Positions 18,905 to 56,199 of a stretch of DNA of 57,640 bases are shown piece after piece. The DNA lies in the IMG/VR virus record IMGVR_UViG_3300032268_000454, positions 1-57,640 of that record; one strand, written 5' to 3'. Origin of the DNA: a virus. The notes beneath the pieces are model-generated. The model saw only the letters and a list, made by a program, of their open reading frames with translations. It had not been told where the DNA came from and searched no databases. Position 1 is the stretch's first letter, and each line of letters opens with the position of its first letter. The position numbers and the translations under genes are program-made.

Positions 18905-20980
18905 ATGCCCGCTTTCTACCCGGAAGGCGACGAGCCGAAACTAGCCGACCCTTCGGGGAGGTCTCTTCATAAGATTAATAATCTTTTAAAGAGTATCGAT
19001 GCTAAAACTGGCTCTACCACCATTACTGGTCCGGTTACGGTCAGCAATGAGGTTGAAGTCACCAACAGCACAGGGAACCCGATTCCGGTAAGCGGAACCG
19101 TTGCTTTAGATTCCAACAGTCTGGCGGCGCTAGAGAACATCAGCGTCACCTTCCCAGCGACTCAGAATGTAAATGTCACCAATGCTGGGTTGAATGTTTC
19201 GGTAACGAATCTACCAGCGACTCAGCCCGTCTCGCTAGCAACGGTTCCTTCTCACGCCGTTACTGGGCCTTTAACAGACACCGAGTTACGAGCAACCGCA
19301 GTTCCCGTCAGTGTCAAAAATGGGGTACCAGCGATTACGACGACAGGAGTTAACCACCCTGTAACCAGCTTCACGGCAAGTACCAAGACAATCACCATCA
19401 CCAACTTCTCAAGCAATCCAGTCATTGGCAACTTTCTGCTTATCGCCAATACAAAGAGAGGAGTAATTGTCCACAACTCGGTTGATCCCGAAAAAATATG
19501 CACATTTGGGTCGCCAAGCTATAACGGCCAGTTCTGGTCAATTACAGCAACTTTCCCCGCCTCTTTGGATACGACTGGGATGCAAAACTCAGACACGTTC
19601 CATGTCGTATATGCACCAGAAGCCGTTGGCTATCCAATCGCCAGTCAAGTTGAGCTTGTTGGGCGTACACAAACGGGCAGTCGAGGTTCCGCCCTGCTCA
19701 GTACAGGTATCACGGGCGCACTTCTTGTCGATGCAGGAGTGGCGGGAGGAGTGGGTACAGCAAGTGAGTCTCCCGCAAGCACCGACACTTCAATTTCGGG
19801 AATTAACGGGCTACTCAAACGCCTTCTTCAGAGAATTACTACACTTATCTACCCGCCTTTTGCTAGTGGGTCTTTTGTTTCTGCTGGCGCAGTCAGTACT
19901 GGTATTGATTGTGGCGGGTATGACTATCTTGTTCTGCACATTTCTGGCGGAGGAGGTGGGTATAATAGGCCGATACAGTGGTCTTATGATAATGCAAATT
20001 GGACGCAGGGAGGCGTGGTATTTAGGCATTCGACTCCCGGTAGCTCATCTACGGGAAATGAAGCTCATTGGACAGTAATGGGCGATATTCTAGGCACAAG
20101 TAGCGGGATATTTGTTATCCCGGTTGTAGGTAGGTATTTTAGGATTGGTGCTAGTACTAATGGTGGTGGGTCGTGGACTCATAACTGGTATTTGCACAAA
20201 GGGCCGTTCCCCGGAATCGTCGAGGAAGGGATCGGAGCTAGAAATTCTTCTCCGGCCTCAACTGATACTTCAGACGTAGGGTTAAATGGCCTCTTTAAGC
20301 GACTTCTCCAAAGATTAACAACCTTACTACCCGCTAACCTTACAGTAAGTTCAACCCGCCTACTTGTGGATGGATCGGGAGTTACCCAACCCGTATCGCT
20401 GGCCTCAGTGCCCTCGCACCCAGTTACTGGGACATTCTGGCAGGCGACCCAGCCAGTCTCTATAGCCTCCGCCCCCGTTACCCCTGTCACAGATAACGGA
20501 GGTTCACTGACTGTCGACGGATCGATTACCGCAACCCAAGCCACCGCCGCCTCGTTAAAAGCTCAAGCTCAACTTCTAAACGCTGCTGGTTCTGTCGTTG
20601 ATTACGCAATGACGGGCACCGCTGGTACGCCAGCAACCGACGTGGTGACTGTGCAGGGTATTAGCGGAGGTACGTCGATTCCAATTAGCGGAACCGTAAA
20701 TACATATCCCCAACAAGGAACAACCGCCACTAACACAAACTTTTCAAGTATAACATCTGCTGAAATCGCCCCAGCAGTTGCCAATAGGGAATCTCTAACA
20801 GTGTACAATGAGGGCCCAGGCACACTCTTCATAAATGCGGGTGGTAGTTGCAGCACAACATCGTATCAGGTTCGTTTATTTGCGGGAGATTATTGGGAGG
20901 CACCGGCGGGGCAACTATCGCTTCAGCACAGCGGAATATTTGGAACTGCCGGTACCGCCCGGGCGGTGCAAGTTAGCTAG
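18905..20980 (+). CDS. repeat-containing virion surface protein, 691 aa
   Basis: Probably a decoration or fibre protein; no enzyme motif. A short helical head (S-G-R-S-L-H-K-I-N-N-L-L-K-S-I-D) leads into beta-rich Thr/Val/Ser repeats of the type A-T-Q-P-V-S-[LI]-A (three or more copies) with V-P-S-H-[AP]-V-T-G. Two copies of S-P-A-S-T-D-T-S-x-x-G-x-N-G-L-[LF]-K-R-L-L-Q-R-[IL]-T-T-L are spaced about 160 residues apart and enclose a domain of about 130 residues. It lies between scaffold and capsid genes, an uncommon place for such a large surface protein. Start is eight bases after the scaffold stop. Confidence 0.65.
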   Translation: MPAFYPEGDEPKLADPSGRSLHKINNLLKSIDAKTGSTTITGPVTVSNEVEVTNSTGNPIPVSGTVALDSNSLAALENISVTFPATQNVNVTNAGLNVSVTNLPATQPVSLATVPSHAVTGPLTDTELRATAVPVSVKNGVPAITTTGVNHPVTSFTASTKTITITNFSSNPVIGNFLLIANTKRGVIVHNSVDPEKICTFGSPSYNGQFWSITATFPASLDTTGMQNSDTFHVVYAPEAVGYPIASQVELVGRTQTGSRGSALLSTGITGALLVDAGVAGGVGTASESPASTDTSISGINGLLKRLLQRITTLIYPPFASGSFVSAGAVSTGIDCGGYDYLVLHISGGGGGYNRPIQWSYDNANWTQGGVVFRHSTPGSSSTGNEAHWTVMGDILGTSSGIFVIPVVGRYFRIGASTNGGGSWTHNWYLHKGPFPGIVEEGIGARNSSPASTDTSDVGLNGLFKRLLQRLTTLLPANLTVSSTRLLVDGSGVTQPVSLASVPSHPVTGTFWQATQPVSIASAPVTPVTDNGGSLTVDGSITATQATAASLKAQAQLLNAAGSVVDYAMTGTAGTPATDVVTVQGISGGTSIPISGTVNTYPQQGTTATNTNFSSITSAEIAPAVANRESLTVYNEGPGTLFINAGGSCSTTSYQVRLFAGDYWEAPAGQLSLQHSGIFGTAGTARAVQVS

Positions 20981-20989
20981 AGAAACGTA

Positions 20990-23626: not shown

Positions 23627-23631
23627 AACAT

Positions 23632-24501
23632 ATGGCCGTCCTATTATTCGTTAAACCCCCCGCACCCGCTGGGCTTCCTGTGGCGAGTACGGCCTCAATC
23701 ATTGTTTCTGGATTACCTGCTGAGTACGGCCTCAACGGAACTTATAGCAAATCAGCTTGGACAGGATATGGGGGCGGAGTTATTTATGATGCCAGCAATG
23801 TATACTACAACCCAAACTACACAGGCGGAGACAAAGATGGAGCCGCAATTGGGTGGAGTAATAACGAGTCTCGTTGGAAATTTACTTACTACAATGATAA
23901 CGCCCAGATTCTTACTTCGACAATTTTGGGCTTATCAGCGAGCCACCTCCCATCAACATCAACGGACTGGCTTGCAGGGACGAATGAAAATTACTATGCA
24001 GGGTTAACCACTTTTTGGACGGGTTCTATCAACATCACCGAAGCACCCGCTGGGATTCCTGTGTCTAGTGCTAGTGTTGTTTTGAATTTAACAAGACCCG
24101 GTTATGGTTACCCCCCTACAACGACACTTGTTAAAAAATCAACAATAGGTGAATACTTGGGGAACGTTACTGGGGATGTACTATATTTAACGTCTGGTTT
24201 TGTTTATAAAAGCGTAAATATAATTTCTGGAACTGATTACGGAAGTACATATCTTGTTCCTCCAAGCGCAGGAGTTGGAGACGCACCTACCCCTAACAAC
24301 TATAATTGGGCTCAGCCAAGCTCATTTTGGAGAATTCTGGATTTTTATAGCGATGACGGAACAAGATATACGGACTTTGGACACAACTCGTCAACGAGCA
24401 CAACTACTATTCCTTCTACTGGATGGATACCAGACCCCAACTACCCAGCTATTTCGGATAATCCTAACGGCGTAACAGCGGTCTCCATCACCGCCTCCTA
24501 A
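23632..24501 (+). CDS. two-module fibre/decoration protein, 289 aa
   Basis: Two tandem modules of about 130-145 residues, each opening A-P-A-G-[LI]-P-V-[AS]-S and ending with a Trp-containing turn and an I-T-[EA]-A-type strand. The short gene at the left end of the window (2-355, opposite strand) is a one-module relative. Rich in Tyr, Ser, Thr and Gly, with no charged core, as in exposed virion proteins. The start reads AAACATATG without a Shine-Dalgarno, six bases after the preceding stop, so it may rely on re-initiation. Confidence 0.6.
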   Translation: MAVLLFVKPPAPAGLPVASTASIIVSGLPAEYGLNGTYSKSAWTGYGGGVIYDASNVYYNPNYTGGDKDGAAIGWSNNESRWKFTYYNDNAQILTSTILGLSASHLPSTSTDWLAGTNENYYAGLTTFWTGSINITEAPAGIPVSSASVVLNLTRPGYGYPPTTTLVKKSTIGEYLGNVTGDVLYLTSGFVYKSVNIISGTDYGSTYLVPPSAGVGDAPTPNNYNWAQPSSFWRILDFYSDDGTRYTDFGHNSSTSTTTIPSTGWIPDPNYPAISDNPNGVTAVSITAS

Positions 24502-41223: not shown

Positions 41224-42408
41224 ATGGGCGGCAAGAAAAGTCCTCCTAAACCACCAGAACTTCAGGCTCCGAAGTTTTCTCAGATTGATCTGGAGAAACT
41301 TGGTCAGTTACTAAACCTGGATCTAAACGATCTTGGCTCTTACCTCAATGCGTACCCTGATTTCATGCAGCAACAGAGCGTCCTTGGCGACCTCGAAGGC
41401 TTCTCAGACGCAGCAAATCAATCGGCCCAGCGCACGCTTGAAGGCGTTGCCCCTGGGGTCATGGATAATCTTAAAACTGCGGCTGACACAGCTTCAGCCC
41501 AGATGCGGGGCGACATTCCTCAGGATGTGGAAGATCAATTGTTTGGGAGCGCAGCTTTTAGGGACTTTTCTTCAGGGGCAGGATCTTCCAGTCAAAGGGC
41601 TAGAAACCTTACGGCTCGTGACTTTGGAACCACCACGATGAATATGCAGAATGCGGGGCTCCAGAACTATCAAAACGTACTCGGTCTTGCCAACGCTTTG
41701 ACCCCCGTCAAATCGACGGATCTTTTGTTCAGCCCCGCAGATGTCCTAGCCCGTCAGGATGCGAATACGGCTATTGGGAATCAAGAGGTCGCGTTTAATA
41801 CGAACCTGACCAACTACACGACTACGTACAATAACGACATCGAGAATCAACAGCGGTACTACAACACCGGCATCAAGAACGAGCAGGCTATTGCGGATAC
41901 GAATACGGCGAATACCAACGCCATGAACAAGTACAACTACGACCTGATGAAGTTCCAACAGCAGGGCAGTAGTGGGCTCGGCAGTCTTATCGGTGGCGGT
42001 CTCGGGGCTATTGCCGGTTCTTTCATCGCTCCTGGAATCGGTACGATGGCCGGGGCAAAGATTGGTTCCGGTTTGGGTGGCGGTATCGAAGGCGCGGTCA
42101 GTGGCCAGGGCTTTGGTGGTTTGGCCAGTGGGTTGCTTTCCGGTGTATCCGCTTTGGGCGGTATCGGTGGTGGGGCGGCTGGTTCTTCTGGTGGATTGGG
42201 CGGGATGGGAAATCTTTTCGGTGGCTTGGGTGGAATTTTTGGTGGGGGCAGTGGAGGTGGTGGTATGGGCGGATCTTCTTCGTTCGGCACAACCCCGATC
42301 CCAAGGGCTGGTGGCCTTGGCGGTGGCGGAGCTGGAAGCTTCAACCCGTTTTCACCAAGTGCGCCTTGGTCTAGAGGTTCAGGGCAACCCTCGATATTTG
42401 GGAGATAA
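41224..42408 (+). CDS. internal virion protein with glycine-zipper region, 394 aa
   Basis: The first 250 residues are helical, with Gln/Asn-rich repeats (N-T-N-T-Y-N-N-D type). From about residue 250 onward it is Gly/Ala/Ser dominated (L-I-G-G-G-L-G-A-I-A-G-S-F-I-A-P-G-I-G-T-M-A-G-A-K-I-G-S-G-L-G-G-G style glycine zippers), a feature of ejected proteins that insert in the membrane. It begins two bases after the preceding stop. Role in DNA ejection is inferred from family behaviour and place. Confidence 0.68.
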   Translation: MGGKKSPPKPPELQAPKFSQIDLEKLGQLLNLDLNDLGSYLNAYPDFMQQQSVLGDLEGFSDAANQSAQRTLEGVAPGVMDNLKTAADTASAQMRGDIPQDVEDQLFGSAAFRDFSSGAGSSSQRARNLTARDFGTTTMNMQNAGLQNYQNVLGLANALTPVKSTDLLFSPADVLARQDANTAIGNQEVAFNTNLTNYTTTYNNDIENQQRYYNTGIKNEQAIADTNTANTNAMNKYNYDLMKFQQQGSSGLGSLIGGGLGAIAGSFIAPGIGTMAGAKIGSGLGGGIEGAVSGQGFGGLASGLLSGVSALGGIGGGAAGSSGGLGGMGNLFGGLGGIFGGGSGGGGMGGSSSFGTTPIPRAGGLGGGGAGSFNPFSPSAPWSRGSGQPSIFGR

Positions 42409-42411
42409 TTT

Positions 42412-43455
42412 ATGGCCTTAGGAGCAGCAAACAAACAGCAGATGCAGCCCGCGCAGTATGTTAATGCTGTAAACGCGGAGGGCTTGTTCCGTCCTGGAAA
42501 CTTTAGCTCTCCTAACGTAAATACCGGGCTTTTTCGACCCCAAGAAACCATGCCGTTGGTTCAGTCGCAAATGCAGCAGACCACGAGGGATAATGTAGCT
42601 CGTCAAGCTCTCCAAGACGGCGAGTCCTGGGGCGTCTTGGAGCGGATGCAGAGTGTTCTTGAAAAATCCCAACCCAATCTCGAGCGGATCAAATACAACC
42701 GAGCGATGGACATGCAGTCGCTTTTGAATAACGAAGTTAAGACCATCGGCGAACTCCATGCCCGCGCTTACAAAGGCGACATGAATGCCCAAGCGCAACT
42801 GGCGAACTTCACATTTAGACCAGAGATTCTTGAGGGTTCTTCAATCGAGCAGTTTTCGGCGCTCCGAGACCAATTAAACAAAGCACAGCTATCGGTTGCA
42901 AATAGCAGCGTAATCGCTTCCTCGCAGGCGGTTAAGAAAGATCTTGCTGAGCGTGTTCAAAAACTTACGGGCGAAGGCAATGAAGACGCTATGGCTTTGG
43001 CTTCCTTGATTGGCTCGACCTTAGTGCAAAGCGGAACCTCGGCCATCCCTCAACCGCAAATTGAAAACATCAAAGATAGAATTTCTTTTTACCGCGCCAA
43101 ATATCCGAAATCTACAGCTATTGATTCCAATATTGTTGATCAATATAAGATGGAACTTCAAGGGGCGGACAAGAGCCGGTTGGAAGATATGGAATATGGT
43201 TCGAACAAAATGTCCGTCCGGGATGCTTCAAGTCTTATGGGCAACATTGGGCGTATTATTGCTTCTGATCCCACAATGTCCGATGACCAAAAAGCAATGT
43301 TCCAAGCTATGATGATTAACGTGGCTGGTAAGTCTGGTATTTTGAACGGGGTAGCGATGCCGGGTATGACTTCACCAGCCGCTAAGCCAGGCGAACCCTC
43401 TACGATGGATAGGCTTAACAACGCCATAAATGCTTTGAAGACACCTTCGAAATAA
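42412..43455 (+). CDS. internal virion protein, 347 aa
   Basis: Helical protein with Gln/Met-rich segments (P-L-V-Q-S-Q-M-Q-Q-T-T-R-D-N-V-A) and no enzyme motif. It lies between the glycine-zipper protein and the giant protein, as the second component of ejected-protein complexes does in podoviruses. Four bases from the previous stop. Function is inferred. Confidence 0.6.
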   Translation: MALGAANKQQMQPAQYVNAVNAEGLFRPGNFSSPNVNTGLFRPQETMPLVQSQMQQTTRDNVARQALQDGESWGVLERMQSVLEKSQPNLERIKYNRAMDMQSLLNNEVKTIGELHARAYKGDMNAQAQLANFTFRPEILEGSSIEQFSALRDQLNKAQLSVANSSVIASSQAVKKDLAERVQKLTGEGNEDAMALASLIGSTLVQSGTSAIPQPQIENIKDRISFYRAKYPKSTAIDSNIVDQYKMELQGADKSRLEDMEYGSNKMSVRDASSLMGNIGRIIASDPTMSDDQKAMFQAMMINVAGKSGILNGVAMPGMTSPAAKPGEPSTMDRLNNAINALKTPSK

Positions 43456-43471
43456 AAAATTTCTAAGAGTA

Positions 43472-46400
43472 ATGCAAATCTCCGATATTCTTCAGAACGA
43501 AAAGTTCAAGGGGGCCGATCCTGATCAACAGGAAGAGATCCTTAACTTGTATGAGCAGGCCATGCATGACGAGGCTTTCAAGCCCGGCAATTTCAACATG
43601 CGTCAATACGCGCAAGCTAAGCAAGAGGTTGATTCAGCTAAGACAGCTTTAAATCTTCAGCCCGACCCGAGGTCTACATTCCAGAGAATGAAGGACGAGT
43701 TCGTGAGTGGTATGTCTTCATCGATGCAAGCGGCCAAGGCTCTTCGTGCGGTCAACGGTCTCGATACTCCTGAAGAAGCTGCTGCCGAGCTTGCAGAACA
43801 GGAAAGAGAACTTCAGGCCAGACCGATGGCTCGCTCCATGCTCAAGTACCAAAAAGCAGGGGGTCAGGGTTGGGTAGCCCCTATTCTTAACATTTTTAGC
43901 AACCCAGAGGCAGCAGCTCTTATTGCGGCTCAAGGTTTGGGGTCAAGCGTCCCCGGTCTTGCCCTGGGCGCAGCTGGAAGTATTGGGACTAAAGCTGCGG
44001 GTGGTGGAAAAGAAGCCGTCCTTTTGTCCACTATGGCTGGTGTTGGCGCGGGTTCAGCTTTTGTTGAAGGCGGATCAAAGATTTTAGAAGACCTACGTGA
44101 GCAAGCTGGCGATCTCCAGGATACCGAAGCGGTAGCCGCTATTCTTCGAGATCCATCAAAGCTTCAAGAAATGAAGAATCGGGCTCTTGCCCGAGGTGTT
44201 ACGGTCGGGGCATTTGATGCGGCCTCTGTGGCGCTTCCTTCTTCGATGCTTTTCAAAACAGCTAAAGGACTGAAAGGTCTGGCGGCTCGAGGTGTTGGTG
44301 ATGCGGCGCTACAAGGTATGTTGGGTGCGGCCGGTGAAGTTGCGGGAAGTGCGGCGATTGGTGAAGAGTCCAATCCGGCTGATGCCTGGGCAGAGTTCAT
44401 CGGTGAAATGGTCCCTGGTATGGTTGAGCTTGGCCTTGGCGGAGCTCGTACTCTTATCCCGCAGACCGAGCAAGCAGCTCAAGAGAAGTCGAAGACCAAC
44501 GCCCTATTCCCCAGTCAGACCAGCGCTCCTACAATCCAAGCCGATAAACAAAAAGGTCAATTTGATCCAGCCAGGGTAGCGCCTGCCGCGGTAACAAAAT
44601 TGGCTAACGCTTCAACTCCTGGTCAGTCTAGTACTCCTGGGGTTGATGATGCTTTAAACGGACCTGAAGTGGTTGATGTCGAGACTCTGGAAGGAGTCGG
44701 AGCTCCTGCTGGAGGCACATCCCCAGAAGATAACATGACGAAGCCCAAGAACGATGGGGCTTTTACTTACCACGGGAGCGGTTTTGGCTCTTTTTCTTCT
44801 GTTGTAGAAACTTTTGCAGAATCTCAGGGGCTTAGGCGTTCCGGGTATAAAGTGGCGACCAACCAGCAGGAAGAGGAAGCTTATTCTGATTTCGATACAA
44901 CAGCCAACCCGGATGAAGCGGATCAAAAGAATATTGATAGTTCCGACTTTGTTATTGTTGTCGGCAACGACGACACTCTTAAGAACGATGTGGGTCAAGC
45001 TAGGTCAAGAAACTATGCTTTGGATCAGGGTAAAACTCTTATCGAAGGTCGTAGTGCTGATGTTCTGATCCCAAGAGTGCTTGATTTCATTAAAGCTAAT
45101 CCAGACCTAGCCAACTTCACTATCATAGGCCCACAGGATACGGCGGTTCGAACCACGGGTAAAAACAGGGAAGCACTCAACCGCGAAGCTTTAGATACTG
45201 CTCGGGAAATAATGCAGACGCTTGGCTCGATCCCTAAGGATCAAGCTTCGAGGGATCTGAACACCGAAGCAAACGCCAGACGCAAGGCTTCTGGGATGGA
45301 TTATGCTAGAGCTTCTTCACCTGCAAGCATTGTTGCTGGACTAATATCTCCAGATAGATACACATCGCGTCAAGAAAGCGCTCAAGAGCTTTTGTCTGAG
45401 TTTGATCCTGCCACCGAGCCAACAGCTAACGACCGTGTTCTTGTTTTTGGTACCGATGTTGCCGGGAGACATGATAAAGTTTACGGCCCCATCGCTCAAA
45501 GGTTAGGGGCTGAAAAGGGAAAGACGGGCGCAGTAGGAAGAACCTACGCCCTCCCAATATTTGACCCGAGTTATAAAGGTCCCGAAGGAAAAGACAACCG
45601 GCAGGGTAGAGGGGAGTCTTTTAATCCGAGATCCGCAAAGCTCGAAATGCAAAAGTTCTTTGATTTTGCGAAACAAAACCCCGGAAAAGAGTTTTGGCTC
45701 ATGTTTGGTGCGTATCCGCATACTTTCTCCGAAAGCCAAGAGCGAGCTATTTTTGCCGGCACTCAAGCTCCTGCCAACGTAAGGTTTCTAGGCAGCACGG
45801 CCGCTAATATATTTCAAGGTTCTATTGCTCCAAAGAGCCGAGTCAGCGTAAGTCGGGGTAAAAAGTCTACAAGGAGCGCTTCTATTCCTAATGTGGATCG
45901 CGTTCTGGGTGAGAGCCAGGCTCTAGACCCAAATGATATAGATAAAGATGTATCAATCGGTGATCGTATTCGTAATAAAGGAAAGAAATCGCTTAGAGGA
46001 ATTATCCTAAGCGAGCGTCAAGCCCGCGAGTTGTTGTCCGCAGCAAATGCAGAAAGAGTTGAGCGTCGCAGGGAAATCGTAGGCACCCCCAAAGAAGGAA
46101 AGATCTATAATCCAGCCATTGCCCCAGGCGGGATTACCAAGCTTTCCTCTTTCCCGTTCACAGCGTTTGCAAATTCTAAGAAAGGTACATTCCTTGTCCG
46201 CATTAAAGGTGTATCCGAAATTGGTACAGAGGTTGATACTCAAACAGCCGCGGAGCTTTCTCAAACCAATCCGCAGACTATTGAAGCTAAGAGGGGTATT
46301 GGAAAACAATATCTTGTCGATCTTGATTATGTGTCGCCTGTCGCTTCGGACTACAGAAGAACTATCTCAAAAATCTACGAACGTGAAACTGAAGTAGTAA

Positions 46401-49400
46401 CTCAAGCTAAAGCTAGCGGGCAGGTAACTCAGATTGATGCGGACACATTGCTTGCTTCTCCACAAGAAGCGGCGAGACCGATCGGGGCACAAGCAAACCT
46501 TCCTGGTCAAGTGGTAGTGACCGTTGAACCCGAGCCAAACACATCCGAGCTAGAGAACAATAGAGCCAGGCTCGATAACGAGTTAAAGCAACTGCAAGCC
46601 AGAGAGGCTGAAGAGTTTGGTTCGCTATCCAAGGATGGTGGTCGTAATGCTCCGAAGAAAAAAGGTTCAATTAATACTGATGAAAGAAAGAGGGTATCTG
46701 ACCGCATTCGAGAACTTACTCTGGCAGTCGGCTATCTAGATAACCAGATACGGGCCGAGCGCCTTAATTGGTTGGACTCAGGTATCGCAAAAATTACAGA
46801 GGCTCTTATCAGGAATGGCGGAGTAGTAGTTATACGGAATTCTCCTGAGTGGGTGAAGGCGTCTGTTCGCGAGTTAAACGCCGTGTTCAATTCTCTGGTG
46901 AGCCCCGTAGATGGGTCGTTGTCGGTCTACGGTGTGCGTGAAGATTATGATACTGACCCCGCAATCTCGGGGCTTTCTACGACTGAAAATAAGGGTTCTC
47001 GTAAGATTAACGACCCCAAGACTTCAAATAAGAATACCGGAAAGTGGTATGGCGCCGCACCTACCTCCGAAATGATTGAGGCCAAAAAAGATCAGGCCGA
47101 ATCCAGCTACATGAGCCAAGTATTTAAGGGTGGGCCGCAAACCTCACTACCCCCTGAAGATCTGGCCAAGCATATTGAGTCGGTCCTGTTCGATAATAAT
47201 CCAGAGCGCATGCGTACAAAGTCGATGCCCGCGTTGAAGAACTTGACGCCCCAGCAAGTGACAACGCTTAAGGATGCGGTGAACGCGGTAAATTCAGTCA
47301 AACCTGGAACTAAACCCACACAGGCCAGTCAAAAACTTCTTAGGGAAGCCCTTAATATTGTTAAGGAGTACGCAGAAAACGAGAAGATTGCCTCGGAGAT
47401 GTATTTGGCCGTCCGAGATGAAAATACATATGCGCTAAATCAGCCAGGCACCTACATGAAGATGCTTGCCAAAGCGATTGCAAGAGACCCTCGTGCTGGG
47501 TCCTTGGCCAACCTCAACCTTTTCTTGCCGGGTGTTGGCTCCGTTTCTTTTACTCCCGACCAAGTTCAAACCTTTGCTAAGGGTGAGCTTACGGGCTCAG
47601 TCAGCCCCGTTGCAGCCAAGTTTACCCCCGCGGATACCACAGGGCTTACGGAAGAAAACAGCCTAGAAAAACAGTTTAAACCCAACTCCCTTTATTTGTA
47701 CGACAACAAGGGGCAAGTGTTACGAGTATTGCCTTTCTCGTTTAGGAACCGGTTTATACCGAACGCGGGCGGTGTGAACATTGTTCCTGATACCGACGTT
47801 CTCCATCCGACAACTTCGCTTAAAGCTTTTGATACCCGTGAAATGTCAGCTCAGAAAAGTCTGACCGCGGAAGAGTTGCGGGATCTGAGTTGGGCACAAT
47901 CTAAAGGATTGCTTGGTGAAATACCGAGCACCGACTGGAGAGGTAGGTTCGCATTGGATGTGTCCGAGAAATTAAGCCGTGGCGAACCCGTAGTTATCGC
48001 AGATCAGGACACTATTCAGTTTGTGCGGGCATACCCCGGCATCTTCACCGGTGTCGTCAGGCACGGCGACAGCATCATGGTTACCGAGATGAAAACCGCC
48101 TTTGGTATTGTAACATCCGAAGCTCCTGTGGCCGGGTTGTCCCAAGACTTTACGAACGTATTCTACAGACTCCTTCAACCTTTCTTTGCCCTCCAAGAGA
48201 ATGAGTTTAATAAGGATATTGAGTTAGGGAGCAAAGAAGAAAACAACTTCGGGTTAAAGAAGACTTTTGCTCAATCGCCGGATGATATCGTGGGCGGTGG
48301 AGTTGGTTCGGTTGGAGATACGGTGCCGGCCTTTAATGCGGCTGGGGAGGCTATTCCTTCCGTCAATAAGCAACTGAGCGAGGGCGAGCGTAGGTTTGAA
48401 GAAGGGCTTGCGGACGAATCTATCCCAGAGACCGAGACTCAAAAGGGTGCTGGAGAAGTTAGTCGTGGGATGGGCGGAGTTGAGTATGGAAAACTCCTTG
48501 AACCAACCGAAGGCGCTAAAGAAGTTAAGTCGGCCAGATTGAATATGCTGATCTCGCCAGAAAAAGCCGAGTTGATCCGCAAAGCAGACCCCGAAGGCAA
48601 GTACGTTCGGATGGTTGTTCTTCCAAGAATTTCCTATATCGCCAGAACGACGGGCAAAGAGATGCCTGTCACGACCAAGGATGGTTACGCAATTGTTACA
48701 GGGATTACAGATCCTCGCACGGGTGAGTACATGGGAGATAAAGCTCCGCTTCCACAGCGTCCGACAGATGAAGTGGCTTCCGAAGAAGAGAGTCTCCAAG
48801 CCGCTACCGCGGTAGCCGCAGAGCAGGATAAGCTGGGCCAATATATTTTCCTACCAAAGGATATTAGTATTCAGGATCTGGTAAGCACGTATCAGAATAT
48901 ATTAAGTACGATTAAAGGCTCTAGCGGTCCTGTTCTTGTTTCAAGGGATGTTCTGGAGTTTAACCAACAGCTTCAGGCGCTTCAAAATGTCGTTTCCTTT
49001 GATGCTACCGACGACGGATTTTACCTGACCGGGGTTTACGATAACTCTAAAGGTGAGTGGATTGGTCAGTTGCCTTATGGGGCAAGAAGAATGACTACTG
49101 GAGAGGTTGCAGCTCTATCGCGTGAACAAGCTGTCGATCTTGGCAACAACATTAACGAATGGTTGCGGGAAAAGAGAGCAGCCAGCGTGGATACTCTTTC
49201 GTTGGATGACGTAACTTTCTCGGACGACGAAATTAAGAACCGAGTTCTCTTGCTTCAAGCCGTTGCTCAGTCCTACCTAGACGGATTCGGAAAGACGCGT
49301 GAGTCGTTGGAGAAGGGGCTCGCGAACATAATGAGCCTAAAGACAAGGGAGAAGCAGAACTATCTATTCCTGGAGAATGTCGAGTCTCGCTTCCAGCAGG

Positions 49401-52400
49401 CTATTAACGAGGGAGCTTTCGACGCCGATGAACTTCGTCTATTGCCGAGGCTCATTGAAGATGCGGTTAACGTATTTAATAGTGGTGTGGTGTACAGCCC
49501 GGTGGACGCCAACGATACGACCAAAGGCTGGAACGCGGGTGTCTCAAGGAAGTTCCCGAACACGTCGGGGCGGCCAAGAGAGCACTTCCTGAGTCGCGTA
49601 AAGAAAAGCGGTATCCCGGAGCAAGAGGCAAACAACCTGGTCGACAATCTTAATATCAATCAGACCGAGACTTTTAAGGATAGTGAGTTGATGCGCAGAG
49701 TGTTTATTGAAACCCTCTTAATGAGTAAGACTGCTGATGGCGCGAAACTCAACGCCGTGCTCAATAAGATTCTTTCTGAGTACGAAGACATGCGCGAACA
49801 GTTTGGCGATGAGTACTTAAACGAGTCTCGTCCTACAAATACGCTTTACGGTTTTGTGACTGCCTTGTCAGTTGAGGGCTATGGTGGCGTTGACGGTTTG
49901 GCAAAACGGGTAGTGGGTATTGCCGCTAACATGAAAATAAACGAGGTTTCCTTCGTCTCATTGGAAGGGACAACGGAAAAGGTCGAATCAAATGAAACAG
50001 AATCAAAGGCTATCGACGTTGCCTTCTTGCCGGACCAAAGCGGCAACGACTATGACGCCCAAAAAGATTTAGCAGGTGACTCATACGACACGGAGCTAGA
50101 CAAATATGAAACACTACCAACCAAAGACAAACGCAGGAAAAAGTACGAAGCCTTTATCAATCAGATGGCTGAGTATAGGGAAGGACTTCCTTTCATTAGG
50201 CGGGCGGTTCATGACATTGTTATGCGCGAAGGGTTTGGATTTACTGCGGGATATGTCCCTACTGTGTATCAAGGTGATGAAAAAGCCCAGCAGGGGTTGG
50301 TGTTCGGCAAAAGCAACGCCCAGTTGGATATTCTGTTTCCCACCGTCAAACTTAAAGAAGAATCGCAAATTGGTGATGCTGGAAAGGGTAAGGGCTTTCT
50401 CAGTGGCAAGCTCCTTAACTCGATATTCGGGGCACTGCCTGGCATTCCGTCCTCTTTCATTGAGCCGGCTGTTCTCGGTCAAATCGCCAAAGAACAATAC
50501 GAAGGGATTCTTCAAGAGCTTGTACGCAACGATATGCAGGAATTCTCGGATGCTGAAAAGGTCCGCGAAACGCTTCGTCAATATGAACAAGAAGTCGTCA
50601 ACGAGCAGAGCCGGGCGTCTCAGCTACGGAAGGATATAAAACAGGCCGGTATACCCGTTAGCAACAAAGCCACTCCGGAAGTAGTAGCCATGAACTTGGC
50701 GGCTAACCCCAGAAGGGTTGGGTCCTTGCCAAAAGCATTGCTAAATATTCTTGGGAATAGCCCGCTGGCCTCGTTGAGAGATGCCTCAGAGCTTTTAATC
50801 AACCGGTTAAGACAACAGTACAAATTTGCTGGGACTACTTTAGAGCAGTTGATGGAGCAACTTATCGATCCGGTAGGTAAGTTCGACGGAACACTGTCTC
50901 CGGAAGAGCTCATCAGTCCTGAAAACGATCGGGCGCGTATGCGAGATATGTTGTTCAACGTTCTCTTGCCTGCCTTCGAGAACAAAGAATCTTTCGATGC
51001 GGCCTCTGTGCTCGGCCAGATGCGGGCGATCAACGATCCGTACCGCAGACAAGCCAACCTATCTAGGGTGCGAAAGATCCGGGCTGATGTATCAGGAGCT
51101 TCGAAGTATGCTACTGAAGCGGGCTTTTCCGATGCCGGGGTGAGCTTCGACCAAAATCTTCTTAACCTCCAAGACCCAAGACAAGAGAAGGCGATGGAGT
51201 ATCTACGCGCTTCCGCCCGCCGTAAGGGTCTGAAAAACGTCAACTTTCAGTCGAACACGACGGAAAACTATCCAGTATTCACGGTTCGCGGTTCCGAAAA
51301 TGCGATGGACCCCGTTAACTCAACTATCTTCGTTAACCCAGAACTATTGGCAGAGAAACTTTTCCAACAAAACGATATTGAGTTTATCAATGAAAGAGCA
51401 AGAAATACGTATGACAAGCTGACAGAGCAACTGATGGAGCAACTTATTGCTCATGAGGTCGCGCACCTTTCCTACTTCGAACAGCTCCGACGGGAGTATA
51501 GGGCTCGCTTTCCTAACGGTGGAGTATCTTGGGAGTCTTACTACAACGAGCGTGTCCGTGATGTGTCAAACTTCCTGCGATCTGATAATAACGGGCTCAA
51601 GGTCAAGCTCCCTGGGCAAAGGGCCGTTTCCGTTACGGAAGCTCTTGGTGAACTCTACCCAGAGACGAAGCAGAGCGATGAAGTCTTGGTAGCTGAGTTC
51701 TTGCGACTACTTCTAGAGTTGGATAAGAGCAGGGGAGCTAAAGTATTTACAGAAGGCTTGGAACTTCAGAGAAGTCTCCAGGTTGAAGATCGAGTATCTA
51801 GCCTGATACGAGGGCAATCTCGCCGGCAAGTTATGGCTATGGACGAGTTCGCTAGATCACAACGGAAGTCGTTCTTGGGTTGGCTCCGCACGGTTCTGGA
51901 TTCCGTATTCAATCTTTTCAGCACGCTCAAAGCCTCCTCCGATCCTCGGGCGAGGGAGCTTTATACAACTTATAATAAACTCAGCGCTATTTACGATCGT
52001 TTCTATTCTGACTATGTGGCGCCTCCGACGGTTAATACCCCGACCGTCGAGACGGAAGGGTTGCTGCCGATGGGCGACGCGTTCAACCGAGCCAAGCCTA
52101 TCGGCGCCCAAAGGGAGTCTGCTGCGGCAGCCAGACGCGCAGATCTATTTGAAGGTCGGGGTGGCGTTCCAAACTACGTCGAAAAAACCTCACCCGAAGA
52201 GATTGCGTATCTAAAGAACGTTGGGGCAATTGATGCGGTTGAGAGTATTCTTAGTGGTTTGGATGCTGAAAAAGTAGCTGTGTGGCTTAGCTATAACCCG
52301 TTACCCGACACAACAGCTGCCGTTGAAATTGGCGATCAGACTTTCAACCTAGATAACACTCAGATCTTTACCTTGGCCAGCTATGCAATCAGTAGATTTA

Positions 52401-55198
52401 ATGAGACGGGACAGAATCACAAAGCTTCGAAGTTGTTGGGGCATGTAAGTAAAATTGGGACTAGTATGGGACAAACCATCTCTATTGCTTACAGACTCTT
52501 AAAGCAGTTCCTTATGCAGTCTCCAGCCGGGATGGTTACTGAGTACGTGTCTCGACTTGCAGAGACAAGAGGCGCATTGAAGAACAAGGTGGGCGAGCAG
52601 CTAGGGTCGCTTGGGGAAGAGGTTAGGCAGGCTCAAGGTGAAGCTTTGGGTCTTACCCTGAACGACGCAGGGGTTCAGGCTTTGATTAAGCAGATCAACG
52701 ATCTGTATGGGCAGGCTTTAAGACAGGTTAACCAGGATGATCTAGCTACTATCATCAGGAATCATTACGCCGAGTTCAGCGGGGAAGAGCTTGTGAGCGT
52801 GCTGGCCAAACTTTTGCCGGAATATGAGAACAAGCCTCTGCTGTTTGAGTTGGCCGACATGGTTCAAAAGAACATGCAGACCCAGCTCGGCAAGGCTTTG
52901 AGCCTGCGTGGCCGTACGCTCCGTAGGAATATTGTAAACCGCAAAGGTATGAACAATGCCGAGCTTCGAGCCGAGCGTATCGAGCAGTTGATTGGGGAGA
53001 TGCATGAGGTTGTAAAGCCACCGATCTCCAAGTCCGGTAACACCATCGAGGATGCTATCTCAGGCGACGCCAGAAAGATCCTTGAGCTGGCCGCGCTAGG
53101 CGCAATCAATGATGACGTTGTTCTCTCAACCATTGAAAGCCTGGGCAAGTTCCCTTCGTTCGATGTAAACACAGCTGAGACTCTTCGAAGGATGATGGTC
53201 GATGCTTCGAGAACGCCTTATGGGTTTCAGCGGGATAGAAAGTTTAACGAAGCCCTTAAGATTTTACACAACGCCACCAAGTCCGATGCTCTACCTCAGG
53301 TTTCCGCATATTGGTACATGTCTATGCTATCTGGTCCAGCGACATTCTGGATGAACTTTATTTCGACGGCTATTAAGGCGGTTGCCGATATCGCAACCTA
53401 TTCTGTGGCGGCAGCCACGGCCCGTGGAAACCCAGCCCTGGCAATTAAATACATGACGCTAGGGTATAAAACATTCTTAGCGTCTTTGAACACCATCGCT
53501 TTAGCTGAGGCAAAGGGAATTCTGCTTCATGGTGACATCAACCCAAGGACAAACGGTAAGTACGTAGATGAGGCCAGCATCAATGCCTTGGAATCTATGG
53601 GAACCGATACCTTGATGAAGAAGGTGCTGTCCAAGGGTAAATATATTTTCAGGATTATGTCTGCTTCAGACGCATTGTTCGGCCGTTCCGCGATGGAAGG
53701 ATTCGCCGCTATTCAAGCTCAGATCCAAGCAATCGAGAATGTGGAAGGCGGGATAAGTAATCTTTCGATTGAAGAGGAGACCGCAAGACTGCTCAATCAA
53801 ACAGATGCCTTCGTGGAGCAGGCCACAAAGCAGGCTATCGGCGAAAAGTTGACTCCTGGTACGGCAGATTTCACGAAGCGGGTGTACGAACTTCGCGACT
53901 TGGCGATCCAGGCTGACCCGGAAAGAGCTTCGATCATGCGTCGGGCTGAAGACCTGTCGCTTTACTCGACATACAACAACAAACCTTACGGGCTGTTGGG
54001 GCATATCGCCGAAGGCATTGGCGCCTTGTCCAGGGAACACCCAATTCTTGTCCCGCTGTTTGTTCCTTTCACCAAGATCGTATCGAACGTAACCAACGAG
54101 AGTATTAACTACACTCCCATCGGCGCATACCGAGCCTTTAAAGCTTGGAAAGAAGCCGGTACGAAAACTACAAGCGGGTTAGCTAAAACCGTAGATCAAA
54201 TGGAACAGATCAAGAAGATTGAGCAGGGCAGTCTCTATGCCATCCAGGCTGTTATCGGAACAAGCGCCATGGTTGTGTTGGCCGGCCTAGCAGGAATGCT
54301 GAAGGACGATGACGATGACGGCCAAGACGACGGCTTTACTATCACCGGTGGCGGACCTTCGGATCCTGCGGCCAGGAAGCAGGCAAGGGAGGGTGGTTAT
54401 TCTCCTTACTCATTCTCCTTTGGCGGCAACAGCGTCAAGCTCAGCTACCTATCAACACCTTTAGCAATTCCTTTGTCGATTGTCGGAACGTGGTTCGATC
54501 AATCCAACTACCCAAGAGGCCGCGAGAAAGACATGACCGAGAAGCTAACCTCGGCCGCGCTCGCCGTCGCCCAGGTGCCCTTCAACCAATCATTCCTTCA
54601 AGGGTTGTCTAACTTGTTTAAGATGCTGGACGGAACTTCTGAAGGTCAGGACGTGTCAGCACTACAGAACTTCTTCTCCGGTGCGGTTGGTAACGTGGTC
54701 CCGAACGTCCTCAAGCAAGCCGACCAGATCTTTGAACCCATCCCACAACAGCAAACAAGCTTTGTCGGCAAGTGGTTGTTTAACAAAGTGCCAATCTTGA
54801 AGAGCATGACTGGAACGCCTCAACTCAATGTGTTGGGTGAGGTGGTCAACGCCCCGGCCGGAGCAGAGAGAATGTTCTTCCTTCAAAGGTTTATCAACAC
54901 CTCGGAAGCTGACCCGTTGTTCAAACTTTTGATGGCTAAAAACGCCTTTATCCCGGACGCAAGAAGGGGAACTAAGATTGGAAACTATCAGTTGAACGAT
55001 GAGCAGTTCTATAAGTTTAGAGAACTTCGCGGCAAGGTGATTGCTCAGGTTGTTCGTAGGCCGTCCTTCTTTGCTATGGCAAAACGAATGGATGCAGACC
55101 AGTTGGATAGCTATCTACAAAAGTTAGGTCAGCAGGCGTCCGACTCAGCTAAGAGACAGCTGACTCCCGAGCTAATCAAACAAGGCGTAAAGTTGTAG
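43472..55198 (+). CDS. giant polyvalent internal virion protein with HExxH metalloprotease motif, 3908 aa
   Basis: One open frame of 11.7 kb, almost certainly ejected with the DNA. Traceable parts: helical head (1-130); Gly/Ala membrane-active segment (about 133-300); a possible Rossmann/SLOG-like domain (about 430-580, with S-D-F-V-I-V-V-G-N-D-D-T); a domain like the A1S_2505 phage family (about 650-800, V-F-G-T-D-V-A-G-R-H, then G-R-T-Y-A-L-P); long unassigned helical regions; a zinc metallopeptidase motif H-E-V-A-H at 2661-2665; helical repeats; a hydrophobic patch after 3285 and a membrane helix near 3587-3605 followed by an Asp run. This is the make-up of large polyvalent proteins. I see no N4-type RNA polymerase motifs. 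Confidence 0.8.
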   Translation: MQISDILQNEKFKGADPDQQEEILNLYEQAMHDEAFKPGNFNMRQYAQAKQEVDSAKTALNLQPDPRSTFQRMKDEFVSGMSSSMQAAKALRAVNGLDTPEEAAAELAEQERELQARPMARSMLKYQKAGGQGWVAPILNIFSNPEAAALIAAQGLGSSVPGLALGAAGSIGTKAAGGGKEAVLLSTMAGVGAGSAFVEGGSKILEDLREQAGDLQDTEAVAAILRDPSKLQEMKNRALARGVTVGAFDAASVALPSSMLFKTAKGLKGLAARGVGDAALQGMLGAAGEVAGSAAIGEESNPADAWAEFIGEMVPGMVELGLGGARTLIPQTEQAAQEKSKTNALFPSQTSAPTIQADKQKGQFDPARVAPAAVTKLANASTPGQSSTPGVDDALNGPEVVDVETLEGVGAPAGGTSPEDNMTKPKNDGAFTYHGSGFGSFSSVVETFAESQGLRRSGYKVATNQQEEEAYSDFDTTANPDEADQKNIDSSDFVIVVGNDDTLKNDVGQARSRNYALDQGKTLIEGRSADVLIPRVLDFIKANPDLANFTIIGPQDTAVRTTGKNREALNREALDTAREIMQTLGSIPKDQASRDLNTEANARRKASGMDYARASSPASIVAGLISPDRYTSRQESAQELLSEFDPATEPTANDRVLVFGTDVAGRHDKVYGPIAQRLGAEKGKTGAVGRTYALPIFDPSYKGPEGKDNRQGRGESFNPRSAKLEMQKFFDFAKQNPGKEFWLMFGAYPHTFSESQERAIFAGTQAPANVRFLGSTAANIFQGSIAPKSRVSVSRGKKSTRSASIPNVDRVLGESQALDPNDIDKDVSIGDRIRNKGKKSLRGIILSERQARELLSAANAERVERRREIVGTPKEGKIYNPAIAPGGITKLSSFPFTAFANSKKGTFLVRIKGVSEIGTEVDTQTAAELSQTNPQTIEAKRGIGKQYLVDLDYVSPVASDYRRTISKIYERETEVVTQAKASGQVTQIDADTLLASPQEAARPIGAQANLPGQVVVTVEPEPNTSELENNRARLDNELKQLQAREAEEFGSLSKDGGRNAPKKKGSINTDERKRVSDRIRELTLAVGYLDNQIRAERLNWLDSGIAKITEALIRNGGVVVIRNSPEWVKASVRELNAVFNSLVSPVDGSLSVYGVREDYDTDPAISGLSTTENKGSRKINDPKTSNKNTGKWYGAAPTSEMIEAKKDQAESSYMSQVFKGGPQTSLPPEDLAKHIESVLFDNNPERMRTKSMPALKNLTPQQVTTLKDAVNAVNSVKPGTKPTQASQKLLREALNIVKEYAENEKIASEMYLAVRDENTYALNQPGTYMKMLAKAIARDPRAGSLANLNLFLPGVGSVSFTPDQVQTFAKGELTGSVSPVAAKFTPADTTGLTEENSLEKQFKPNSLYLYDNKGQVLRVLPFSFRNRFIPNAGGVNIVPDTDVLHPTTSLKAFDTREMSAQKSLTAEELRDLSWAQSKGLLGEIPSTDWRGRFALDVSEKLSRGEPVVIADQDTIQFVRAYPGIFTGVVRHGDSIMVTEMKTAFGIVTSEAPVAGLSQDFTNVFYRLLQPFFALQENEFNKDIELGSKEENNFGLKKTFAQSPDDIVGGGVGSVGDTVPAFNAAGEAIPSVNKQLSEGERRFEEGLADESIPETETQKGAGEVSRGMGGVEYGKLLEPTEGAKEVKSARLNMLISPEKAELIRKADPEGKYVRMVVLPRISYIARTTGKEMPVTTKDGYAIVTGITDPRTGEYMGDKAPLPQRPTDEVASEEESLQAATAVAAEQDKLGQYIFLPKDISIQDLVSTYQNILSTIKGSSGPVLVSRDVLEFNQQLQALQNVVSFDATDDGFYLTGVYDNSKGEWIGQLPYGARRMTTGEVAALSREQAVDLGNNINEWLREKRAASVDTLSLDDVTFSDDEIKNRVLLLQAVAQSYLDGFGKTRESLEKGLANIMSLKTREKQNYLFLENVESRFQQAINEGAFDADELRLLPRLIEDAVNVFNSGVVYSPVDANDTTKGWNAGVSRKFPNTSGRPREHFLSRVKKSGIPEQEANNLVDNLNINQTETFKDSELMRRVFIETLLMSKTADGAKLNAVLNKILSEYEDMREQFGDEYLNESRPTNTLYGFVTALSVEGYGGVDGLAKRVVGIAANMKINEVSFVSLEGTTEKVESNETESKAIDVAFLPDQSGNDYDAQKDLAGDSYDTELDKYETLPTKDKRRKKYEAFINQMAEYREGLPFIRRAVHDIVMREGFGFTAGYVPTVYQGDEKAQQGLVFGKSNAQLDILFPTVKLKEESQIGDAGKGKGFLSGKLLNSIFGALPGIPSSFIEPAVLGQIAKEQYEGILQELVRNDMQEFSDAEKVRETLRQYEQEVVNEQSRASQLRKDIKQAGIPVSNKATPEVVAMNLAANPRRVGSLPKALLNILGNSPLASLRDASELLINRLRQQYKFAGTTLEQLMEQLIDPVGKFDGTLSPEELISPENDRARMRDMLFNVLLPAFENKESFDAASVLGQMRAINDPYRRQANLSRVRKIRADVSGASKYATEAGFSDAGVSFDQNLLNLQDPRQEKAMEYLRASARRKGLKNVNFQSNTTENYPVFTVRGSENAMDPVNSTIFVNPELLAEKLFQQNDIEFINERARNTYDKLTEQLMEQLIAHEVAHLSYFEQLRREYRARFPNGGVSWESYYNERVRDVSNFLRSDNNGLKVKLPGQRAVSVTEALGELYPETKQSDEVLVAEFLRLLLELDKSRGAKVFTEGLELQRSLQVEDRVSSLIRGQSRRQVMAMDEFARSQRKSFLGWLRTVLDSVFNLFSTLKASSDPRARELYTTYNKLSAIYDRFYSDYVAPPTVNTPTVETEGLLPMGDAFNRAKPIGAQRESAAAARRADLFEGRGGVPNYVEKTSPEEIAYLKNVGAIDAVESILSGLDAEKVAVWLSYNPLPDTTAAVEIGDQTFNLDNTQIFTLASYAISRFNETGQNHKASKLLGHVSKIGTSMGQTISIAYRLLKQFLMQSPAGMVTEYVSRLAETRGALKNKVGEQLGSLGEEVRQAQGEALGLTLNDAGVQALIKQINDLYGQALRQVNQDDLATIIRNHYAEFSGEELVSVLAKLLPEYENKPLLFELADMVQKNMQTQLGKALSLRGRTLRRNIVNRKGMNNAELRAERIEQLIGEMHEVVKPPISKSGNTIEDAISGDARKILELAALGAINDDVVLSTIESLGKFPSFDVNTAETLRRMMVDASRTPYGFQRDRKFNEALKILHNATKSDALPQVSAYWYMSMLSGPATFWMNFISTAIKAVADIATYSVAAATARGNPALAIKYMTLGYKTFLASLNTIALAEAKGILLHGDINPRTNGKYVDEASINALESMGTDTLMKKVLSKGKYIFRIMSASDALFGRSAMEGFAAIQAQIQAIENVEGGISNLSIEEETARLLNQTDAFVEQATKQAIGEKLTPGTADFTKRVYELRDLAIQADPERASIMRRAEDLSLYSTYNNKPYGLLGHIAEGIGALSREHPILVPLFVPFTKIVSNVTNESINYTPIGAYRAFKAWKEAGTKTTSGLAKTVDQMEQIKKIEQGSLYAIQAVIGTSAMVVLAGLAGMLKDDDDDGQDDGFTITGGGPSDPAARKQAREGGYSPYSFSFGGNSVKLSYLSTPLAIPLSIVGTWFDQSNYPRGREKDMTEKLTSAALAVAQVPFNQSFLQGLSNLFKMLDGTSEGQDVSALQNFFSGAVGNVVPNVLKQADQIFEPIPQQQTSFVGKWLFNKVPILKSMTGTPQLNVLGEVVNAPAGAERMFFLQRFINTSEADPLFKLLMAKNAFIPDARRGTKIGNYQLNDEQFYKFRELRGKVIAQVVRRPSFFAMAKRMDADQLDSYLQKLGQQASDSAKRQLTPELIKQGVKL

Positions 55199-55203
55199 GA
55201 TTA

Positions 55204-55232
55204 TTGACCACAAATCGCAAGTAATTAGAATA
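55204..55232 (+). promoter_or_regulatory. late-type promoter of the glucosaminidase gene
   Basis: TTGACC (55204-55209), N10, AGTA (55220-55223), N3, AGAATA (55227-55232). The ATG at 55240 lies 36 bases from the first T without a Shine-Dalgarno, predicting a leaderless mRNA. Confidence 0.6.
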
Positions 55233-55239
55233 TAAACAT

Positions 55240-56199
55240 ATGGCTACAAGACAAGAACAGATCGACTTTATCAAGGCAGCGGTTATCCCTGCCGAACGCG
55301 TAGCCGCAAGATTAGGAGTACCGAGCAACGCAGTCATGGCGCAGTGGGCTATGGAATCTGGATGGGGAACAAGCAAGCTCGCAAAGGCGGCAAATAATTT
55401 CGGGGGTATCAAGGAGTGGAAGGGTGGGCCGTCCGTGCGGATGCCGACCAAAGAGACTGTGAACGGCAAGGTGATTAACACCGAGGCTAACTTCAAAAAG
55501 TTTAATGACTTCAATCAGTACGCAGATGAGTACAGCAAGTTCTTATCCACTGACAGGTACAAGAATGTTCGTGGGCAAGCAGACCCTATGGGCTTTGCCA
55601 ATGCCCTAGCCACTTCTGGCTACGCCACAACCAATCCCCGTGAATATTCAAACTCTATCATGGGTGCGATGAAGAGTGTTGATCGCCTGCTTCCAGAGAT
55701 TAAGTCTTCAATGCCCGCAGCTAATCAGGCCACCAGTCAGCCAGTAGATGCGCAACCTGGGTTCTCCTTTAAAAAAGGGTCGGCCCGAATGGATAAGCCT
55801 ATGGACCCGAACACCTCGGTGGCTGCCGCAAGGATACCGAGTAGCCGAGATACGACTGGCGACGTAATTGATTGGTACAAGAGAAACACCCCGGACGGAA
55901 GTAATGAGGGGAAGTCTCCTTACGGGGAAGATATCATGTCTTCGACTAGCCCGAGTCGAGGTGCCTTGATGGGGAAGGGTATGGGTGAAGGAGCAATGGC
56001 TGGGAGTTCGGCTAGCCCAGGGTTTGATATTATGGGTGGCCTAGCTGGATTGCTTGAGGGATTTGCAGGGGCAGGGGATTCAGCTGGGTCGAACGCGACC
56101 AACACGATGCTCGCTGATTACGCTAATAGCCTGAACAAGCCGACCTTTGATTTTAAACAGCCAACTAAATATAAGTTCCCAGGGTTCTTTAACGGGTAG
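55240..56199 (+). CDS. virion-associated glucosaminidase-domain protein, 319 aa
   Basis: Residues 1-150 are a FlgJ/LytD-type glucosaminidase domain: A-V-M-A-Q-W-A-M-E-S-G-W-G with catalytic Glu39, N-N-F-G-G-I-K, and F-N-D-F-N-Q-Y-A-D-E-Y. It cleaves the glycan strands of peptidoglycan. Residues 165-319 are a Gly/Ser/Met-rich tail with G-L-A-G-L-L-E-G-F-A-G-A-G, unlike free endolysins. With its place among internal virion genes this points to a tail- or core-borne lysozyme that opens the wall at entry, rather than a lysis enzyme. Confidence 0.8.
   Translation: MATRQEQIDFIKAAVIPAERVAARLGVPSNAVMAQWAMESGWGTSKLAKAANNFGGIKEWKGGPSVRMPTKETVNGKVINTEANFKKFNDFNQYADEYSKFLSTDRYKNVRGQADPMGFANALATSGYATTNPREYSNSIMGAMKSVDRLLPEIKSSMPAANQATSQPVDAQPGFSFKKGSARMDKPMDPNTSVAAARIPSSRDTTGDVIDWYKRNTPDGSNEGKSPYGEDIMSSTSPSRGALMGKGMGEGAMAGSSASPGFDIMGGLAGLLEGFAGAGDSAGSNATNTMLADYANSLNKPTFDFKQPTKYKFPGFFNG

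Follow-up and report, generated by a model that had tools for sequence, protein, structure and literature searches.

The DNA analyzed here, which we refer to as the window, is a linear virus contig of 57,640 bases. A single open reading frame, with an ATG start and 3908 codons uninterrupted by internal stops, accounts for 20.3% of this length, as the initial annotation had stated in describing one gene as a fifth of the window. Six full-length relatives from IMG/VR (3749-4167 aa) have the same start codon and an intact frame throughout, and the IMG/VR relatives of the giant protein comprise eight contigs with its C-terminal half and one N-terminal fragment. Searches of IMG/VR for deeper relatives of the gene returned these same eight contigs and the fragment and nothing beyond them, and none were found in the genome collection that was searched. 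Pfam scans of the protein, whole and piecewise, gave significant matches only in comparator and neighbour proteins. The phages compared here are metagenome-derived. An integrase gene is present in the window phage, and in one relative (L066, G004:C1:24841-26124) an otherwise near-identical copy of the integrase has one TAA stop reported inside the match.

The giant gene lies 3' of the tail genes and 5' of a gene for a glucosaminidase, an order that is the same in those relatives whose contigs reach it. The glucosaminidase may be a virion-associated or a lysis enzyme, and may have a role in the virion rather than as an endolysin alone. Two smaller genes upstream of the giant gene are candidates for partner ejection proteins (Table 1); a likeness of both to P22 gp7 and gp20 was considered and was not supported by hhalign.

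Table 1. Positions of the giant gene, its predicted domains and motifs, and its neighbours in the window
Feature	Residues	Window position	Strand	Basis or remark
Candidate partner ejection protein gene, 394 aa		41224..42408	+	Position and composition; no Cys; no family match
Candidate partner ejection protein gene, 347 aa		42412..43455	+	Position and composition; no Cys
Putative polyvalent ejection protein gene (whole), 3908 aa		43472..55198	+	ORF call, Cys-free
Region common to the giant protein and CP2 ORF24	129-292	43856..44347	+	hhalign, BLASTP
Predicted SLOG (cpYpsA-like) Rossmannoid domain	425-590	44744..45241	+	AlphaFold model, Foldseek
Domain related to A1S_2505 phage family / phrog_2072	656-772	45437..45787	+	Profile matches
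PIGAQ motif, copy 1	1003-1007	46478..46492	+	Edge of gain/loss module
Optional module	1010-1215	46499..47116	+	Absent in L003, L007, L008
Insertion place	1354-1358	47531..47545	+	Extra module of ~133-137 aa in L007, L008, L010
Probable zincin-like metallopeptidase domain	2568-2770	51173..51781	+	HEXXH, order, weak profiles
HEVAH motif	2661-2665	51452..51466	+	Sequence
Glu 2742 and Glu 2749 (both invariant), putative source of the third zinc ligand	2742-2749	51695..51718	+	
PIGAQ motif, copy 2	2876-2880	52097..52111	+	Linker after zincin
C-terminal internal-virion-protein domain	3292-3908	53345..55195	+	phrog_6651, UOF82117
Glucosaminidase gene, 319 aa		55240..56199	+	PF01832 E=1.5e-25; no Cys

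The two ends of the giant protein have separate affiliations. At the C-terminal end, residues 3514-3744 match phrog_6651, a PHROG family of 'internal virion protein' (E=1.5e-11), and the whole C-terminal domain aligns with UOF82117 of podovirus ctQWt234 (BLASTP E=4e-29; hhalign probability 99.7%), which itself matches phrog_6651 at E=2e-24 and whose gene lies directly 5' of an endolysin gene. The likeness between these two proteins concerns the C-terminal ~600 residues and the neighbouring endolysin gene; UOF82117 differs in having 1121 aa and no detected peptidase, SLOG or A1S_2505 cargo. Near the N-terminus, residues 129-292 match ORF24 (2478 aa) of Xanthomonas phage CP2 (hhalign 96.3%, E=1.6e-9; BLASTP 1e-11), a protein that carries the curated polyvalent domain LPD22 of Pfam (E=1e-25) and two HEXXH motifs. 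Since a polyvalent front is joined here to the end of an internal virion protein, the giant protein can be considered a chimera.

Three of the properties by which polyvalent proteins are recognized can be found in the giant protein: several domains with unrelated predicted activities (a SLOG fold, an A1S_2505-related domain, an HEXXH motif and an internal virion protein domain), a position among late virion genes, and a region in common with a recognized polyvalent protein. It resembles the phage-type polyvalent proteins (PMC5512222), such as CP2 ORF24 and gp81 of Serratia phage Parlo (3764 aa), in its very large size, late position, predicted HEXXH peptidase, lack of cysteine and C-terminal hydrophobic stretches. 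The cargo, however, is different, consisting of SLOG and A1S_2505-related domains instead of the ART, methylase-helicase, ParB or RNA polymerase domains of those proteins; the giant protein lacks anything corresponding to the LPD22 region or to the greater part of CP2 ORF24, and no similarity between it and Parlo gp81 is detectable by BLASTP. The initial annotation had also proposed membrane-active ends, for which there are weak indications in four hydrophobic 19-mers with Kyte-Doolittle values above 1.3 (residues 147-165, 243-261, 3203-3221 and 3588-3606); the last alone is strong (1.84) and the other three are not.

Cysteine is completely absent from the 3908 residues of the giant protein, from the two upstream proteins and from the glucosaminidase, and makes up 1.2% of the residues encoded by minus-strand genes and 0.5% of those encoded by the other plus-strand genes of the window. 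The same absence is seen in T7 gp15 and gp16, in N4 gp50, gp51 and gp52 and in P22 gp7, gp20 and gp16, with T7 gp14 having one cysteine. For a comparison of ejection-class proteins (400 aa or longer) with other late proteins, Pectobacterium phage CB1, Serratia phage Parlo and Xanthomonas phage XAJ24 were added, which brought the controls to 11 (T7 gp15 and gp16, N4 gp50 and gp51, P22 gp20 and gp16, the CB1 vRNAP, Parlo 080 and 081, and two internal proteins of XAJ24). All 11 are Cys-free (17,517 residues); among the 28 other late proteins, 3 are (121 Cys in 18,911 residues; Fisher p=2e-7). Membership of the ejection class was set by annotation, homology or gene position and the members are partly related to each other. 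The observation covers window positions 41224-56199 and loci L069, L070, L071, L089, L090 and L091. Among proteins that do contain cysteine are DarB (9 Cys) and DarA (1 Cys) of phage P1, which has a contractile tail, and the polyprotein of relative L010, which has a single one.

Freedom from cysteine is an empirical rule derived from this analysis rather than an established criterion, and the giant protein conforms to it. A review of ejection proteins makes no mention of cysteine (PMC8954989), and a search of the literature for a rule of this kind found no statement of one, which does not by itself prove that none exists. It is possible that proteins which leave through short tails are Cys-free as a general rule, and the loss of cysteine might be explained by a composition that is compatible with unfolding.

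The C-terminal homology, the region in common with CP2 ORF24, the late position and the Cys-free composition bear out the earlier proposal of a large polyvalent and probably ejected protein, and on these sequence grounds it is highly probable that the giant protein is an ejected virion protein. The alternative that it is a late cytoplasmic protein that never enters the virion and serves in anti-defence or superinfection exclusion would draw on the integrase, with which roles in the prophage stage are possible, but it is at odds with the homology to internal virion proteins, the place of the gene in a block of ejection protein genes and a composition like that of proven ejection proteins, and we consider it very unlikely.

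Between the ends of the protein, the segment that had been described as possibly SLOG- or Rossmann-like (residues 430-580) is supported as such at residues 425-590. The AlphaFold model, computed with seven sequences, is weak (mean pLDDT 50, with core blocks at 60-74), and it displays the alternation of strands and helices of a Rossmannoid domain. Its best Foldseek match in the PDB is 3imk, a cpYpsA/SLOG-type putative molybdenum carrier (probability 1.00, E 4.8e-3, TM(target) 0.60), and the proteins ranked after 3imk are unrelated. When the domain alignments were searched against PDB sequences, no useful match resulted. The PF12694 profile did not match the segment at E<=10, and we therefore name it cpYpsA-like without filing it as a member of that family. 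Another difference from the cpYpsA/SLOG family is that its proteins stand alone, whereas this domain is embedded in a giant, putatively ejected protein. Pocket-like positions of the domain (G-S-x-F-G, N-D-x-G-Q-x-x-x-R-N-x-A and P-Q-x-T-A) are invariant among relatives that differ by up to 45% in this region, which is the most divergent of the named domains. That the SLOG domain binds a nucleotide seems likely.

The next domain, at residues 656-772, agrees with the earlier view that residues 650-800 contain a domain like that of the A1S_2505 phage family. It matches NCBIfam NF049995 (A1S_2505) at E=9.1e-9 and phrog_2072 at E=2.6e-5; since the NF049995 score of 35.6 bits does not reach the 45 bits set as the curated cut-off, we regard the domain as related to the family and not as a filed member. 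It has in common with the family, which is represented among the small standalone homologues of Rhodobacter phages by RcLkye gp55, an FG[ST]-x-x-x-G-x-H start and a G-x-x-G-x-x-Y-x-x-P block, and it differs from it in having GAYPxTFS in place of the family motif GCGLAG and in being part of a much larger protein. Seemingly strong PDB matches between the A1S_2505 alignment and armadillo repeats of designed proteins were set aside as an artefact, with ~31 residues of a repetitive target being covered. It is our own reading of the sequence that the A1S_2505 domain may resemble a Macro domain. Phage SLOG and Macro domains, which are described as typically standalone, have been proposed to counter host signals derived from NAD or ADP-ribose (PMC9503650, a 2022 survey), and SLOG is absent from the main text of the 2017 survey of polyvalent proteins (PMC5512222). 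The combination of predicted SLOG, A1S_2505-related and protease domains in one giant protein is new relative to the 2022 survey and to the main text of the 2017 one.

The HEVAH motif was found where it had been reported, as the sole HEXXH of the giant protein, and it is invariant in all relatives; the number of such motifs expected by chance is 0.007, a low value because histidine makes up 0.49% of the residues. Secondary structure predicted around it follows the order helix, three strands, a long helix that carries HEVAH and, farther on, a helix in which Glu 2742 and Glu 2749 lie (H-E-E-E-H-H...H), which is the layout given for polyvalent metallopeptidases (PMC5512222). Against three metallopeptidase profiles, built from CP2-type and N4-type peptidases that match each other at 98.4%, the zincin segment was the best of eight segments of the giant protein and placed HEVAH on HEXXH, with weak scores (P 0.008-0.03); the local match of HEVAHLSYFEQL in the window protein with HELVHASTFEEV in N4 is striking by eye. 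Foldseek searches of the zincin model against the PDB and BFVD produced no significant match, as is to be expected from a model with a pLDDT of 53. The zinc protease proposed in the initial annotation is thus supported in part: the motif, the ligand-like glutamates, the predicted order and the weak profile matches stand in agreement, and the fold searches speak neither for nor against it. We think it likely that the putative zincin is active.

Phage N4 has a giant ejected protein with a peptidase of this type, and the window protein, with a similar order and size, could be imagined to be a diverged N4-type virion RNA polymerase that has its peptidase domain behind it. It is like N4 gp50 (3500 aa) in its size class, in having a predicted HEXXH peptidase after ~2000 residues and in lacking cysteine, and a DWRGR sequence at residue 1488 recalls a motif of T7-type polymerases. 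The DWRGR sequence is not conserved, however (relative L010 has DWRSK), the RxxxKxxxMxxxYG motif is absent from the giant protein, there is no overall homology between the two proteins, and in hhalign comparisons of eight segments with N4 gp50 no probability exceeded 5%, with the top one located at HEXXH. The motif check and hhalign thus reject an identity as an N4 vRNAP, which we consider largely refuted and extremely improbable.

Comparisons among relatives indicate that the parts of the giant protein evolve in different ways. Four relatives have a terminase that is 98-100% identical to that of the window, and in these the identity of the polyprotein is 54-84% in SLOG, 44-81% in residues 2860-3000 and 84-94% in residues 3300-3908; their tail fibre genes are also variable. 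Amino acid comparisons can be normalised because many segments have diverged to a similar degree at silent (fourfold) sites. Against relative L004, with a fourfold identity of ~0.5, the SLOG bins have an amino acid identity of 0.66; the corresponding values are 0.84 for the A1S_2505 bin, 0.91 for the zincin bin and 0.91-0.98 for most of the C-terminus. Whole modules are gained, lost or swapped in the first half of the protein, with the frame kept and the C-terminus conserved. One optional module comprises ~200 residues, and another (L007:6068-6478, L008:6068-6478 and L010:5933-6331) is inserted in three relatives with the pattern TTLQLIQDGxRxSTTRRAF...GDxIxF...EGWS and had no sequence match in Pfam, PHROG or the PDB. 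Patches of ~100% DNA identity among the relatives point to recombination. The pattern of variation fits that of a constant delivery device with exchangeable cargo, as far as sequences can indicate, and relaxed constraint in the cargo may be an alternative cause of the variation.

These same comparisons bear on whether the internal domains have any function beyond bulk. The giant protein might be a structural ejection protein only, a DNA pilot that forms a channel or spans the membrane, in which what is left of decayed SLOG, A1S_2505 and zincin domains serves as spacer or packing mass. The homology to internal virion proteins would agree with this, as would the loss of GCGLAG and the several tests against curated models that failed or scored under the cut-off. 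Yet HEVAH, Glu 2742, Glu 2749 and the pocket-like SLOG positions have stayed invariant in spite of the divergence around them, and entire modules are gained or lost without a break in the frame, and a purely structural role seems unlikely to us. We consider it likely instead that the protein combines two roles, being a polyvalent protein and also the largest of the ejection (internal virion) proteins of a temperate phage with a short tail, so that the main idea of the initial annotation was correct as to kind and, for the most part, as to detail.

Clues to how such a protein might be unpacked come from a motif in its linkers. The sequence [RK]PIGAQ occurs in two copies and nowhere else in the six frames of the window, and each of the seven full-length proteins has it at both of these places, as do the partial relatives. 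The linkers that hold it have 15% and 35% invariant columns, as compared to 57% overall, and PIGAQ is the sole one of 602 invariant pentamers that is present twice. The chance expectation for such a repeat is ~0.2 by our own estimate, which makes the motif a lead and not a proof. We regard [RK]PIGAQ as a candidate cleavage or docking site. If both copies are cleavage sites, the products would be residues 1 to ~1007 (cargo), ~1008 to 2880 (middle part with the zincin) and ~2881 to 3908 (delivery end).

The course of events that we would envisage begins with the C-terminal ~600 residues, which, judging from their homology, would have the protein packaged in the head and help it to exit through the portal into the cell envelope. 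A chain without cysteine would be suited to unfolding, passage through the tail channel and refolding. The first ~1000 residues, with the SLOG and A1S_2505-related domains, would be the cargo, which most likely would bind or process nucleotide-type immune signals derived from NAD or ADP-ribose early in infection; that NAD-type defence or immune signalling is thereby blocked is a tentative suggestion. The zincin near residue 2661 would free this cargo, probably acting in cis, at or near both [RK]PIGAQ linkers, with cis-cleavage at PIGAQ itself being possible and still doubtful.

The zincin might alternatively be an injected effector that cuts host proteins, for example those of defence, with the polyprotein being delivered whole and staying whole. 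The N4 virion RNA polymerase, with the same peptidase domain, is packaged uncut (PMC5512222), and it and plasmid polyvalent proteins with this type of peptidase move uncut, host targets having been proposed for them in the same survey. Within the central part of the giant protein the zincin block belongs to the better conserved stretches, which would agree with such a role. The occurrence of the motif in the linker on either side points to sites in cis, however, and the domain is embedded far from both ends, and an effector of this kind appears rather unlikely. The proposal of a self-unpacking chain, in which a constant ejection end and an embedded protease would release exchangeable immune-signal-binding domains at [RK]PIGAQ, with module swapping within one phage species and the absence of cysteine as a general mark of podovirus-ejected proteins, is likewise a speculation that, taken in its entirety, has less than an even chance of being correct by a good margin.

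Should this view of the giant protein be right, SLOG-type nucleotide-signal domains would be present in a pre-loaded giant ejected protein and able to act ahead of any phage gene expression. The variation within a phage species, with a fixed delivery end and variable cargo, would then amount to a natural experiment from which one could learn what cargo defeats what defence. If the Cys-free rule holds widely, injected podoviral proteins, whose recognition is difficult by other means, could be found by a sequence test of very little cost, and as a general mark the rule could be used to find injected effectors in metagenomes. The Cys-free signature and the swapping of cargo at the species level are the parts of this analysis that are least likely to be known to specialists.

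Two further observations concern repeats and exchange in the window. A triple internal repeat in residues 1090-1890 of the giant protein was not supported by hhalign, and one pair of ~30 residues alone scored, DGYAIVTGITDPRTGEYMGD and DGFYLTGVYDNSKGEWIGQ (residues ~1735-1765 and ~1846-1875; window 48674-49096; P=1.3e-4). Elsewhere, at 18905-24501, three genes (691, 878 and 289 aa) are flanked by the portal side and by the gene that likely encodes the major capsid protein; they are largely missing in three of four relatives with 98-99% identical terminases, and the fourth retains most of them. They form an exchangeable block, perhaps with a function in receptor binding.
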